A stretch of DNA of 49,999 bases. Origin: Dehalococcoidia bacterium. GTDB taxonomy: Bacteria; Chloroflexota; Dehalococcoidia; SM23-28-2; HRBIN24. Position numbers and translations under genes: made by a program. Shown here in pieces: positions 38,045 to 49,657 of this stretch. Numbering within the stretch: position 1 is the first letter of the stretch; each line of letters opens with the position of its first letter. Under the pieces are notes generated by a model that saw only the letters and a program-made list of their open reading frames with translations, was not told the origin of the DNA and did no database searches. Location of the stretch: positions 1 to 49,999 of the forward strand of contig JANXAP010000034.1 of the NCBI GenBank assembly GCA_025062275.1, written 5' to 3'.

Positions 38045-39302
38045 GGCGCCCGTCATCGCCCTGGCCGGCATAAGCCACCACACCGCCCCGGTGGAGGAGC
38101 GGGAGGCCCTGGCCTTCTCCACCGGCGAGCTACGAGCTGCCCTCCCTCGCCTCAAGCAGGAGCTGGGGGCCGCCGTCATCCTGTCCACCTGCAACCGCAC
38201 CGAACTCTACACCGTCGTCGGCGCCGCCGAGGACGCCTGCCGTCTGGTGCCCCTGCTTTTGAGGCTGCGCGGGGCCCGCGTGGACCCCTCCCGCTTCTAC
38301 GTGCTCACAGGGCTGGAGGCGGTCCGACACCTCTACCGGGTGGCCGCCGGCCTGGACTCGATGGTGGTTGGCGAGAGCCAGATCCAGGGGCAGGTGAGGG
38401 ACGCCTTCTCCCTGGCCACCGACGCCGACTGCGTCAACGGCCTCCTCTCGCGCCTGTTCCACACGGCCCTGGCAGTGGGGAAGCGAGCCCGCCGCGAGAC
38501 GTCCATCGGCCGTTGGGCGGCCTCGGTGGGTAGCGCCGCCGTGGCCCTGGCCCGACAGGTCCTGATGGGGCTGGAGGGCCGCACGGTCCTGGTGGTTAGC
38601 GCTGGAGCCACCGGCAAGCTGGCGGCCCGTGCCCTGACCGAGGCCGGGGCCGCCCGGGTGCTGGTGACCAACCGTACCTATGCCCGGGCGGTGGAGGTTG
38701 CACGGTCCCTGGGGGGCCAGCCGGTCCCCTTTTCGCGACTGCCGGAGGCCCTGGCCCAGGCCGACATAGTCATCAGCGCCACCGGTGCCCAGGGCTTCGT
38801 GCTGGGACCCCAGCAGGTAGCTCCCGCCCTGGCCGGACGGGATGGACGCCCCCTGGTGTTCATCGACCTGGCTGTGCCCCGGGACGTGGATCCGGCTGTG
38901 GGCGAACTGGAAGGAGTCCACCTCTACGACATCGACGACTTGCAGGAGGTGGCGGCCCCCCAGGGCACCCACCTGCGCGACCTGCGCAGGGCCGAGGCCA
39001 TCGTCGAGGAGGAGGTGGCCCGCTTCCAGGAATGGTGGCAGTCGCTGGACGTGGTGCCTGTCATCGCCGCCCTCCGCCAGCGGGCCGAAGAGATAAGGCA
39101 ACGAGAGCTGGAGCGGACCCTGCGACGCCTGCCCGACCTGTCGCCGGAGGAGCGTCAGCGCATAGAGGCCATGACCATGGCCATCGTCAACAAGCTGCTG
39201 CACCGCCCCATCGCCCGCCTCAAGGACGGCGCCGACATCGCCCTCTACCGCGAGGTGCTGTCGGACCTGTTCGGCCTGTCGTCCGAGCAGCCCAGGAAGT
39301 GA
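38034..39302 (+). CDS. hemA: Glutamyl-tRNA reductase
   Basis: 422 residues. Catalytic C53 in ILSTCNRTELY, GESQIQGQVRDAF, AVGKRARRETSIG and nucleotide-binding VVSAGATGKLAARALTEAG. C-terminal dimerisation region LHRPIARLKDGADIALYRE. First committed step of C5 tetrapyrrole synthesis, paired with hemL at the end of this operon. The NADPH loop reads SAGATGK where GAGEMGK is usual, a mild deviation. Confidence 0.95.
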   Translation: MKVKAPVIALAGISHHTAPVEEREALAFSTGELRAALPRLKQELGAAVILSTCNRTELYTVVGAAEDACRLVPLLLRLRGARVDPSRFYVLTGLEAVRHLYRVAAGLDSMVVGESQIQGQVRDAFSLATDADCVNGLLSRLFHTALAVGKRARRETSIGRWAASVGSAAVALARQVLMGLEGRTVLVVSAGATGKLAARALTEAGAARVLVTNRTYARAVEVARSLGGQPVPFSRLPEALAQADIVISATGAQGFVLGPQQVAPALAGRDGRPLVFIDLAVPRDVDPAVGELEGVHLYDIDDLQEVAAPQGTHLRDLRRAEAIVEEEVARFQEWWQSLDVVPVIAALRQRAEEIRQRELERTLRRLPDLSPEERQRIEAMTMAIVNKLLHRPIARLKDGADIALYREVLSDLFGLSSEQPRK

Positions 39303-44877: not shown

Positions 44878-44974
44878 GGGAGTGGCAGGGGCCCGGTGGC
44901 CCTCCCGGTCTTCAAAACCGTGGCGGGGCGGCGTGCCCGTCCCGGGTGGGTTCGACTCCCATACACTCCCGCCA
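44878..44974 (+). tRNA. selC: tRNA-Sec, anticodon TCA, with encoded CCA
   Basis: 97 bases, not the usual 76. Anticodon loop CTTCAAA with TCA at 44912-44914 matches the E. coli selC loop. Acceptor GGGAGTGG pairs with ACACTCCC (7 pairs plus one G-A mismatch), discriminator G and encoded CCA. A 6-bp D stem with a CGGT loop, a long G/C-rich variable arm and a T arm GTGGG-TTCGACT-CCCAT. The extended acceptor, long D stem and variable arm are the selenocysteine hallmarks. No selA, selB or selD lies in the window. Its 3' end abuts a mobile element. Confidence 0.92.
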
Positions 44975-45084: not shown

Positions 45085-46155
45085 ATGCCGAGGCGGGCCC
45101 GCCACGAGGGGACAGTCTACAAGCGCCCTGACAGGAGCTACTGGGAGGGAGGCGTCTCCCTGGGCGGCAAGCGCTACTGGGTGACGGGCAAGACCCGCTC
45201 GGAGGTGGTCGCCAAGCTCAGGGCCCTCGTCTCCCGCTACCAGGAGGGGAACCTAGCGCCCCCCTCTCGCCTTACCGTAGCCGACTGGGTAGCCGAATAC
45301 CTGGCCGATGCCGAGGGGAGGCTGAAGCCCAAGACTCTGGACACCTACCGGGCCGAGCTGGCGGCCCTCCTCCCCCACCTGGGGCGGGTGCGGCTAGTGC
45401 GCCTCTCGCCATTGCACATCCAGCGGGCCCTCCTGGAGCTCTCGGCCCAGGGGAAGGGGACCAGGCGGCTGCAGCTGTGCTGGGCTGCCCTCCATGCCTG
45501 CCTGGAGAGGGCGAGGCGCCTGGGGCTCCTGGGCAGCAACCCCTGCGACCAGGTGCCAAAGCCCGCCCATCAGAGGCGGGAGGCCAGGGAGTGGGGTATC
45601 GAGGAGATGAGACGGTTCCTGGCCGAGGCCGCCGCCGACCCTCACCCCCTGTCGAAGATGCTGGGCCTGGCGCTCCTGACGGGCATGAGGGTGGGGGAGC
45701 TCCTGGGCCTGGAATGGGGAGACGTGGACTGGCAGGACGCCGTGTTGAGGGTCAGGCGCAGCGTGGTCTGGGCCAGCGACGGCTGGCACCTGGGCGGGCC
45801 GAAGAGCAGGGCGGGCGAGCGGGCCATCACCCTTCCCGCCCTGGCTCTACGCCTCCTGGAGGGGCTGCCCCGGGACTCGGTGCACTTGTTCTGGCGGGCG
45901 AGGCCCCCCCGTTCCCGCACCATCAGCGAGGCCATGGCCACTTTGTGCGAGCGGGCGGGGGTGCCCAGGCGCCCCGCCCACTATTTGCGCCACTGCCATG
46001 CAGCGCTGCTTGCCGCCCAAGGCCTCGATATCAAGACCCTCCAGAGGCGCCTTGGCCATGCCCAAGCGTCCCTCACCCTGGACGTCTACGCCCACGCCCT
46101 CTCGGAGATGGACAGGAGGGCGGCGGAGCTGGTGGATGAGGCGCTGGCCACGTGA
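45085..46155 (+). CDS. Tyrosine-type site-specific integrase
   Basis: 356 residues. N-terminal arm-binding-like domain (GTVYKRPDRSYWEGGV, KTRSEVVAKLRAL), core SAM-like domain from about 62, then the catalytic domain: R202 in LTGMRVGEL, K240 in GGPKSRAG, H299-x-x-R302 in AHYLRHCH, H325 in RLGHAQ and nucleophile Y335 in LDVYAHAL. All catalytic residues are intact. ATG 45085 has GGGAGGG seven bases upstream; the longer frame starts inside the tRNA and is rejected. Integrates the element, likely at selC. Confidence 0.95.
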   Translation: MPRRARHEGTVYKRPDRSYWEGGVSLGGKRYWVTGKTRSEVVAKLRALVSRYQEGNLAPPSRLTVADWVAEYLADAEGRLKPKTLDTYRAELAALLPHLGRVRLVRLSPLHIQRALLELSAQGKGTRRLQLCWAALHACLERARRLGLLGSNPCDQVPKPAHQRREAREWGIEEMRRFLAEAAADPHPLSKMLGLALLTGMRVGELLGLEWGDVDWQDAVLRVRRSVVWASDGWHLGGPKSRAGERAITLPALALRLLEGLPRDSVHLFWRARPPRSRTISEAMATLCERAGVPRRPAHYLRHCHAALLAAQGLDIKTLQRRLGHAQASLTLDVYAHALSEMDRRAAELVDEALAT

Positions 46156-46238: not shown

Positions 46239-46454
46239 ATGCTGCGCACGGACACCGAACATGTCAGTGTCTCACAGGCCGCCCGGCGGCTCGGGCTAAG
46301 CCATATCCGTATTCGTCAGCTCATCGCCGAGGGCAGGCTCACCGCAGTTCGCACGGTGTTGGGCCACCTAATATCGGCGGACTCGGTTGAAGCGCTGGCG
46401 GCAGAAAGAGAGAGACGGCAGCGAGAAAGGAGGGCAAATGGCGAAAAGGCTTAA
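46239..46454 (+). CDS. Excisionase-like helix-turn-helix protein
   Basis: 71 residues. VSVSQAARRLGLSHIRIRQL, IAEGRLTAVRTVLGHLISAD is the winged-helix DNA-binding pattern of Xis/excisionase-type proteins; the C-terminus is a basic-acidic helix. Placed directly after the integrase, with its own promoter and a GAGGAGGG ribosome site. Could be the recombination directionality factor or a transcription regulator. Confidence 0.8.
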   Translation: MLRTDTEHVSVSQAARRLGLSHIRIRQLIAEGRLTAVRTVLGHLISADSVEALAAERERRQRERRANGEKA

Positions 46455-46552: not shown

Positions 46553-47005
46553 TTGGCGCCTCACAATGATTTTACTGCTACCCGCTCAACAACGCAAGCT
46601 TTAACGGTCTACCGCCCTTCACTAGGGCGATGGGCCGTCATCGGCAAGCTAACGCAAGTCGATGGCGAGACTGTCCTAGCCGTGCCGTACAGGCGCCGCC
46701 AGCGCTTAGAAGGCCGCATCAGCCTGCCTGCCGTAGCCCTTCATTACGCCGCCGAGCAAGGTGCCACCGCCATTATTGTGCGACTCGACAGCGAGCGGCT
46801 GGCCTACCGCCTGCCACTGGCCGAGGCCCTTCGCATCGGCAGCCCGGGGACAGTAGACGGGCAGGCAGAAATCTGGCTCCGGCTCGATGACTTCACCGAG
46901 GTAGGCTGGCCCGATTGGCCCTTCGCCACACGAGAGGTAAAGCTTGGGCCGGGGCCTGAGAGTTTCCCACGGCAGTTGGCGCTCATGGCGGAGGTGGCAG
47001 GATGA
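46553..47005 (+). CDS. Unrecognised small protein of the element
   Basis: 150 residues, TTG start after AGAAGGAGGG. No family recognised. Has a beta-rich look: [58 protein letters not shown] and [16 protein letters not shown]. Ends by ATGA overlap with the primase gene, so it probably acts in replication. Confidence 0.6.
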
Positions 47006-49065
47006 CTGCCGCCGACCGCCTCTCCCCCGTTTTGGCCCGCCTGGAGGAGCTGACCTGCCGTCCCGTGCGCTACCGCAACGGCACGTGGGCTGCCCTATGT
47101 CCGGCCCACGATGACCAGCACCGGAGCCTGTCGCTCAGCGAAGGCGAGGACGGGAGAGTCCTCATTCGCTGCCACGCAGGGTGCGACACCGAGGCGGTGC
47201 TGGAGCGCCTCGGCCTGTCTTGGGCCGACCTGTTTCCACCAGGCGAGCGTCGCAATGGCCACCAGCCGGACAAGCGCCAGGCCCAACAGCCGGGTGTAGC
47301 AGACCCGCTGACCTGGTGGGCAGAACGTTGCGGTGTGCCTCGGGAGTGGTTGCGCAGGCTGCCCATCGAGGCCAAGGACGGGGCCATAGCTTTTACCTGG
47401 CCTACCCTGGGCGTGGCTAAGCTGCGTTCGCCCGAGGCTAAGGGATACTGGGCCGGTGATGGCCCACGTCCCCCCTTTTGGCCCGCCCTGGCTGAGGCCA
47501 TGCCGCCGGTGCTGGTGCTGTGCGAGGGAGAGAGTGACGCCACAGTGGCCCTCTACGCCCTGGAAGCAGCAGGGCTACGGGAGGTAGCATCCGCCCATGC
47601 AGTGACGAAGGGGGCCGCCGCAAAGCCCGACGGCGCCATTCTGCGAGAAGTGATGGCCAGGGGTGCCCGGGCGCTCCTGGTGGTGGCCGACGCTGACGAG
47701 GCCGGGGAGAGGGCAGCCCGCCACTGGGTGAACGTTGCCCAGGAAGTAGGCCTGGCCGCCGCCACATTCGACCTGGTAGGTAGGGGCCTGGTGGCCCCCT
47801 CCCTGGGCGAAAAAGACCTGCGGGACGCATTCCGCCGCCAGTCCGTGGGGGTCATGGCCGCCCTCAAGGAAGCGGTGGAGGCCCTGGCCGACGGTGCCGC
47901 TGGCCCAGTGCCCTGGCGCACGTTGGACGAGGCCGAGGGTGACACCCATGTCACGTGGGCGTGGGAGGGCTACATTGGCTATGGGTGCGTCACGCTTTTG
48001 TCGGCGAGACCCAAATGGGGCAAGTCCACGCTGATATGGCACCTGCTGCGAGCCCTGGCGAGCGGGGCCGGCGAGTTTCTAGGGCAGGAGGCTTCCTTGC
48101 CCGAAGGCGCCTGGGCCCTCGTGGCCACGGAGGAGCCCCCCGCCGTCGTCATAGAGCGGGCCCAGGCCCTGGGCCTGCCCGCAGACGGCCCCGTGCGAGT
48201 GCTCTACAGGAAGGACGTGCCCACCTGGGCGCAGGCGCTTTCCGTCTTCGAGCGAGCCGCCAATGAGGGGGCCCGCCTGTTGGTGGTGGACACGTTCTCG
48301 GCCTGGGCAGGCGTGGAGGATGAAAACGCAGCCAGCCATGTTGAGGCCGCCATTCGCCCGCTGGTGAACCTGGCGCAGCGCTGGGGCCTGGCCGTTGTCA
48401 TCCTCCATCACCGGCGCAAGGCCGACGGGGCCGAGGGCACCGGGCACCGGGGTTCATCAGCCTTAGTCGGGGCAGTGGACATCGCCATCGAGATGAAAGG
48501 CGAGGAAGGGGGGCCCAACCGCCGCAAGCTTGAAGCGCTCTCCCGCTTTGAGGCGACGCCCCGTGACTTGGTCATTGAGCTGCAAGGCGGTGACTACGTC
48601 GCCATCGGTAGTGGGGAGCGGGCCGCCTTCAGACGGGCGTTGCGCATCATTCATGACCTTTTGCCCGGCCCTGACGACGAGCCCACCAGCGCCTACAAGC
48701 TGGCCCAGTTGGCCCGGGAGGCCGGGGCCAGCGGGGCAGCCGCCACGACTCTGGCCCGTGTCCTTCGTTGGCTTGCCGAGAAGGGAGAGGTCCAGGCCAT
48801 CCAGCTGCCCGGGAAGGCTGGAGTGGCCTACAGGTGGGCGGCGGCGGGGGGGCAGGGGCGAGGTGGAAAGTTAGTGTCGGTTCGTCCATCCAAGCATAAG
48901 TATAGGGGGTGGATGGATGAACCTTCGTCCAACCAAGCACCTATATATATGCTTGGTGGACGAAACGAACGGCCCGGCCGCCCCCCTGAAGCTCCCCCAC
49001 CTGCCGCCCCCGCCGACCCCGATGACGACCTGCTGTTGTTTGAGCCAGAGGAGGGGACAGCATGA
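47002..49065 (+). CDS. Primase-helicase (zinc finger, TOPRIM, RepA/DnaB-like ATPase)
   Basis: 687 residues. Zinc finger of CHC2 type: C33-x2-H36 (LCPAHDD), C57 and C61 (RCHAGC). TOPRIM: E175 in LCEGESDA, D230 and D232 in [13 protein letters not shown]. RecA-like ATPase: [10 protein letters not shown] (residues 335-343), a Walker B LLVVDTF and VVILHHRRK. Winged-helix-like region after about 540, and a Pro-rich tail. Replicates mobile DNA. ATG overlaps the previous stop; the 3' end contains an unusual repeat cluster. Confidence 0.92.
48879..48964 (+). repeat. Interleaved direct and inverted repeats inside the primase gene
   Basis: TTCGTCCAtCCAAGCA at 48881-48896 and TTCGTCCAaCCAAGCA at 48924-48939 (15 of 16 identical, 43 bases apart), and the reverse complement TGCTTGGTGGACGAA at 48950-48964. 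The first also pairs with GGATGGATGAACC (48911-48923) through GGTTCGTCCATCC (48879-48891), 12 of 13. Two neighbouring hairpins with loops of 19 and 10 bases, the second loop being the AT-rich CCTATATATA. The repeat lies in a low-complexity part of the protein. Confidence 0.85.
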
Positions 49066-49532: not shown

Positions 49533-49657
49533 GGCGTGAGAGGCGTGAGACGATCGTCTCACACAGGCGCCGGTGCCGGCGGTGTGGGGAGCCTCTGCCG
49601 CCGAGGTGGCTGCCATACCTGTGCCCTGCTTGCCTCCTTGAGGAGTTCCTGAAATGA
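49529..49657 (+). CDS. 42-residue zinc-ribbon microprotein
   Basis: C16-x2-C19 (CRRCGE) and C32-x2-C35 (CPAC) make a four-cysteine zinc ribbon with a strongly basic N-terminus. Too short for most automated annotation, but ATGA overlaps at both ends tie it to the operon. Its codons 6-12 contain an 18-bp perfect palindrome. May bind DNA or RNA. Confidence 0.6.
   Translation: MRRERRETIVSHRRRCRRCGEPLPPRWLPYLCPACLLEEFLK
49545..49562 (+). repeat. 18-bp perfect palindrome
   Basis: GTGAGACGATCGTCTCAC, fully symmetric, preceded by an overlapping GAGGCGTGA repeated twice (49531-49548). It lies inside the microprotein gene and resembles a dimer-binding site. Confidence 0.85.

Follow-up and report, generated by a model that had tools for sequence, protein, structure and literature searches.

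A candidate replication origin within the coding tail of a primase-helicase gene from a Dehalococcoidia prophage-like element

In P4, the ori2 site lies inside the alpha primase-helicase gene, and the origin of Streptomyces pSLA2 lies within rep1. The lambda ori is situated within gene O and contains inverted repeats for O dimers (PMC5043065); oriL of SPP1 falls within gene 38, which encodes the origin-binding protein (PMC6316719); and in phage-inducible chromosomal islands (PICIs) the origin directly follows rep or pri-rep on the 3' side (PMC6092414). In pRN1, a 100-nt stem-loop behind the primase-helicase-winged-helix gene is, together with the operon, necessary and sufficient (PMC4234260). 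The shape of this stem-loop is kept while its sequence diverges, and the same arrangement has been proposed for some phages (PMC4234260). Here we analyze a stretch of 49,999 nucleotides from a Dehalococcoidia bacterium (GCA_025062275.1, contig JANXAP010000034.1, positions 1-49,999; hereafter the window), which carries a prophage-like element encoding a primase-helicase. Within the 3' end of this gene we find two tandem palindromes, and we propose that the region spanning them (48877-48968) is probably the origin core of the element, housed in its own initiator gene. The features involved are as follows.

47002-49065, plus strand: primase-helicase, comprising a zinc/Toprim-like primase half, a RepA-type helicase of RecA fold, a C-terminal winged helix and a disordered tail
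48613-48843, plus strand: winged-helix-like domain (amino acids 538-614) following the helicase in the AlphaFold model; candidate site-binding domain
48850-49062, plus strand: disordered tail (amino acids 617-687) that accommodates the palindromes; predicted local distance difference test (pLDDT) score below 50 throughout
48877-48968, no strand: whole inverted repeat, foldable as a single hairpin of about 90 nt; candidate origin
48879-48923, no strand: palindrome 1, TTCGTCCATCCAAGCATAAGTATAGGGGGTGGATGGATGAA, 41 bp, with half-sites at 48881-48888 (plus) and 48914-48921 (minus)
48924-48964, no strand: palindrome 2, TTCGTCCAACCAAGCACCTATATATATGCTTGGTGGACGAA, 41 bp, with half-sites at 48924-48931 (plus) and 48957-48964 (minus), and TATATATA at 48942-48949

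The start-to-start distance of the two palindromes is 43 bp. In each, the outer half-sites (TTCGTCCA/TGGAYGAA) lie 33 bp from one another, and much of the interior differs. A preliminary description of this DNA had listed near-exact 16-base repeats, an inverted copy, a second hairpin and a loop, and each can be located at 48879-48964: the 16-mer TTCGTCCAWCCAAGCA at 48881-48896 and 48924-48939, its inverted copy TGCTTGGTGGACGAA at 48950-48964, the second hairpin GGTTCGTCCATCCA/TGGATGGATGAACC at 48879-48892/48910-48923, and the TATATATA loop. The core TGGAYGAA is present four times, twice per orientation, as that description had it. It had also proposed searching for the repeats elsewhere. The 16-mer occurs exactly twice in the window, even with up to three mismatches allowed, and no further half-site pair was found in the element. 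Exact matches to the 16-mer in viral contigs amounted to 67 single, scattered occurrences, none of them doubled, which is chance level. Apart from tRNA-Sec, no Rfam family matched in the window.

Pairing of the left arm of palindrome 1 with the right arm of palindrome 2 would create the long hairpin, whose fold (-31.7 kcal/mol, z = -8.65) was reached by none of 200 shuffles; among 255 intervals scanned along the element, it has the most extreme fold z-score (-12.7). The claim that the region is AT-richer than its surroundings also held: at 45.6% G+C it is the lowest 90-mer of the window, tied with one intergenic stretch. With the protein sequence held fixed, 1000 shuffles of synonymous codons never reached the A+T content and reached the fold energy six times.

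The nearest proteins are encoded by a second element in the same genome (L042) and by an element in a sister genus (L043). Both genes carry palindromes in the same tail, plus one in the linker between primase and helicase (12611-12649 in L042, 1129-1167 in L043), a copy that the window gene does without. Their half-site, GTTTCGTTYC, differs from that of the window. The spacer is 19 nt in all five L042 and L043 palindromes and its sequence varies, with one right half-site in L043 being degenerate; in the window palindromes, counted between TTCGTCC and GGAYGAA, it is 27 nt. The window half-site is read once in codon phase 1 and once in phase 2, and both phases recur among the homologues, yielding the unrelated peptides GFVPT, PFRFD, RPS and SSN. 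A half-site read in two phases as unrelated peptides indicates that the DNA is kept, rather than the protein sequence. Together with the fixed spacing and the synonymous constraint described below, this shows that the palindromes are selected as DNA and not as protein.

We extended the comparison to 47 relatives, scoring repeated 9-mers on both strands in 250-nt intervals over each gene and its flanks against 60 dinucleotide shuffles; the same score recovers the annotated lambda ori precisely (39033-39153). A cluster reached by no shuffle was present in 25 of the 47 relatives. In 19 of these 25, its center lay between -505 and +350 nt of the stop codon, compared with roughly a quarter by expectation (binomial p = 1e-7). 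With this zone fixed, newly fetched relatives placed seven of seven significant clusters inside it, compared with 3 of 13 for other open reading frames on the same contigs. The clusters sit within the tail, span the stop codon or follow shortly behind it, a distribution in keeping with a DNA element rather than a protein motif, and their repeat cores vary between groups of relatives. This placement of repeat clusters at the 3' end of the gene is a more general result than the window palindromes themselves. Codon shuffling gave a repeat count unreached by 100 shuffles in 11 of the 47 relatives, mostly in the tail. Inverted repeats, tested in all relatives against the same type of null, were only weakly enriched, since the repeats of most relatives are scattered and do not form a single palindrome; this test told less than the short-repeat count.

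Constraint on the DNA is seen in the RepA gene of Synechococcus phage S-CBS3. Compared with an 81%-identical relative, codons of conserved residues are unchanged in 87% of cases within the repeat block, against 57% and 51% beyond its limits (p = 4.6e-5). The block, built of TTTGTCAC/GGGACAAAC repeats, occupies the 3' part of the gene (L205, GU936715: 31530-31703), and the record does not mark it as an origin. In the small Stutzerimonas plasmid pPSEST02, a dense repeat cluster (L206:4179-4427) follows directly behind a gene for a VapE-domain primase, close to where the raw cumulative GC skew peaks (4290). The preliminary description had named two outcomes that would count against an origin, namely repeats absent from related primase genes or conserved only as protein sequence. 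We observed neither, as relatives from many bacterial groups carry repeats in the same place and the reading frames, the synonymous constraint and the crossing of the stop codon all point to conservation as DNA.

The protein itself matches Pfam AAA_25, PHROG 6088 (primase) at its N-terminus, and RSF1010 RepA in the PDB (1g8y, E = 1.8e-6); its AlphaFold model, built from 12 sequences, resembles the T7 replisome (5ikn) and RepA (1nlf). Among annotated phages and plasmids, no homologue closer than those found spans the entire protein. The predicted winged-helix domain contains helices at 538-553, 567-576 and 581-593 and strands at 597-600 and 611-614, and the two closest homologues have weak HTH_IclR matches. 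The palindromes start at amino acid 626, just past this domain, in the disordered tail; that a low-complexity tail could host the repeats, as had been suggested, agrees with the model. The extreme end of the protein (window 49022-49065; EADVVFEPEEGAAA in L042), beyond the palindromes, is similar in the window and L042 elements and is perhaps a short docking peptide.

An A+T-rich, palindromic or repeated 3' end that is under DNA-level selection beside a winged helix is best read as an initiator with its origin. We envision that dimers of the C-terminal winged helix, whose coding sequence directly precedes the two 41-bp palindromes, bind to them, with half-sites 33 bp apart, or about three helical turns. 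Upon binding, the A+T-rich center would melt or extrude as a hairpin, the fused helicase ring would be loaded at the melted site, and the fused primase would lay the first primers. The main role of the disordered tail may be to allow palindromic DNA to be coding. The original designation as a replication origin is partly supported: an origin is the best reading in view of the published precedents and of the homology to replication genes that carry origins. The accompanying term "iterons" is loose, as the locus consists of two palindromic, dimer-type sites and no direct-repeat array.

Several observations weigh against this proposal. By a plain short-repeat count (k = 7), the window's own copy is not significant, as 4 of 40 shuffles reach it; by that score its case is weak, and it rests on palindromy, A+T content, reading frames and homologues. 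A number of the 47 relatives have no cluster at all, and GC skew in three complete relatives (S-CBS3, pPSEST02 and pSINAC02) shows no consistent switch at the repeats. The zone around the stop codon was set after looking at the first set of relatives. The winged-helix assignment derives from a model of moderate confidence. Finally, the true control site could instead be an element-specific palindrome further downstream, at 49545-49562. In the counts of relatives, some members are not independent (L197 with L202, and L204 with S-CBS3).

This downstream sequence, GTGAGACGATCGTCTCAC, is a perfect 18-bp palindrome lying 480 bp past the gene and preceded by the direct repeat GGCGTGAGA. It is identical in L042 (G000:C25:54122-54139) and otherwise absent from four related genomes; it may act as an operator or belong to an origin with two sites. 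Its perfect conservation just downstream of the gene in both elements of the genome is one reason to consider that the palindromes within the gene, too, are operators: sites at which a repressor of the element, or an autoregulating primase-helicase, blocks transcription within the gene, with no function as an origin. Dimeric palindromes of fixed spacing are typical of operators. The sites, however, are placed at the gene's end and, in the homologues, also in the linker in mid-gene, not at promoters, and no other half-site pair was found in the element. Recurrence specifically at the 3' end of replication genes fits an origin better, and we regard operators as unlikely.

The strong fold of the region, together with a helicase domain homologous to RepA, raises another alternative, in which the primase half starts primers on single-stranded hairpins in the manner of ssiA and ssiB of RSF1010 and the initiator binds elsewhere; the RSF1010 primase uses ssi hairpins of 40 nt (PMC4434180). 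Yet it is the half-site spacing that stays constant while loop sequence and pairing length vary, a pattern that better fits binding to duplex DNA, and many relatives carry scattered iteron-like repeats rather than one hairpin. The primase halves of the window protein and RSF1010 also belong to unrelated families, and we consider such a start site improbable.

Insertion of a palindromic mobile element in frame, like Rickettsia palindromic elements (RPE) or repetitive extragenic palindromes (REP), would account for the palindrome that L042 and L043 each carry twice or more within a single gene, in tail and linker, but it is largely refuted and very improbable: the many copies that mark a dispersed element are missing, with no further copy of the window palindromes or those of the homologues in their own genome or in 60 related genomes, and the position stays while the sequence differs between elements. 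It is equally implausible, and refuted as a sole cause, that the repeats are a side effect of the protein sequence or the composition of a low-complexity tail that is disordered and free to drift, since copies are read in different frames, codon shuffles fail to reproduce the A+T content or the fold, the S-CBS3 pair shows synonymous constraint and repeat clusters cross the stop codon.

The gene lies in an element whose left part is ordered as tRNA-Sec, tyrosine integrase, small helix-turn-helix protein, a protein without assigned function, and primase-helicase.

44878-44974, plus strand: tRNA-Sec gene, the likely attachment site (ARAGORN; Rfam RF01852, 74.9 bits), with the integrase directly downstream
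45085-46155, plus strand: tyrosine integrase (Pfam PF00589, PHROG 1), start codon inferred
46239-46454, plus strand: small helix-turn-helix or excisionase-like protein (Pfam PF21531, PHROG 66)

On the 3' side of the primase-helicase follow a 156-amino-acid protein, a small zinc-ribbon-like open reading frame and the first part of an exonuclease of phage type (PHROG 298), inside which the contig ends, 0.9 kb after the primase-helicase gene. Both element contigs break off at one and the same position in the exonuclease gene (window 49999 and G000:C25:54594), where they are just 85% identical, and the right part of each element is absent from the assembly, so that the window element may be a phage or a satellite. 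The tRNA neighbors on the integrase side are tRNA-Sec in the window, tRNA-Lys/tRNA-Leu in L042 and tRNA-Met in L043; related integrases thus seem to use different tRNA genes.

Beyond this element, we give roughly even chances to a broader rule: that in phages, satellites and plasmids of many bacterial phyla, genes for fused primase-helicases keep the origin at their own 3' end. This site would slide freely across the stop codon, change quickly in sequence along with the DNA-binding domain next to it, and at times be copied into the linker between primase and helicase. In a literature search covering mostly non-subscription sources, we found no paper stating a 3'-end rule for this helicase family. 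For phages and satellites of uncultured bacteria, the origin is hardly ever known. If the rule is true, the gene sequence alone would point to the origins of thousands of uncultured elements, origins and initiator specificities would become readable from sequence, and minimal replicons could be tested in laboratory strains. Co-evolution of initiator and site could then be traced within a single gene, and odd repeated peptides in replication proteins would be explained as the shadow of DNA sites.

Among described systems, RSF1010 oriV shares with the window a homologous helicase, RepA, and hairpins near the origin (PMC4234260, PMC4434180), but it employs three separate proteins, its iterons are bound by RepC and its origin lies outside repA. 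A hairpin is present in the window, but the primase family differs from the RepB' type. SPP1 oriL likewise has origin repeats in the gene of the origin-binding protein beside an A+T-rich stretch (PMC6316719); these are direct repeats, however, and SPP1 uses a separate loader and a DnaB-type helicase. Lambda O provides the precedent for inverted-repeat sites of a dimeric initiator within the initiator's own coding sequence (PMC5043065). O is an initiator only, with four mid-gene sites, whereas in the window initiator, helicase and primase are seemingly fused and the sites fall in the tail. As in such intragenic origins, the window has repeated, palindromic sites inside the coding sequence of a replication gene and an A+T-rich candidate unwinding element, the TATATATA center, which is short compared with that of lambda. 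PICIs resemble the window in that an A+T-rich, repeat-bearing origin comes directly after a primase and an initiator, which are sometimes fused (PMC6092414). There, two sets of iterons flank the A+T-rich stretch outside the gene; here, the A+T-rich part is within the two palindromes and the palindromes are within the gene. The likeness to pRN1 of Sulfolobus is that sequence diverges while structure and place are kept (PMC4234260). Its loop, however, lies 54 bp past the stop codon, behind an archaeo-eukaryotic primase and a superfamily 3 helicase. The window protein instead gives AAA_25/RepA and T7-like matches, combining a RepA-type RecA-fold helicase with a DnaG/T7-like primase, and its palindromes are in the coding tail. 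With proteins of other families, the window locus would work on the same principle in another protein lineage and inside the reading frame.
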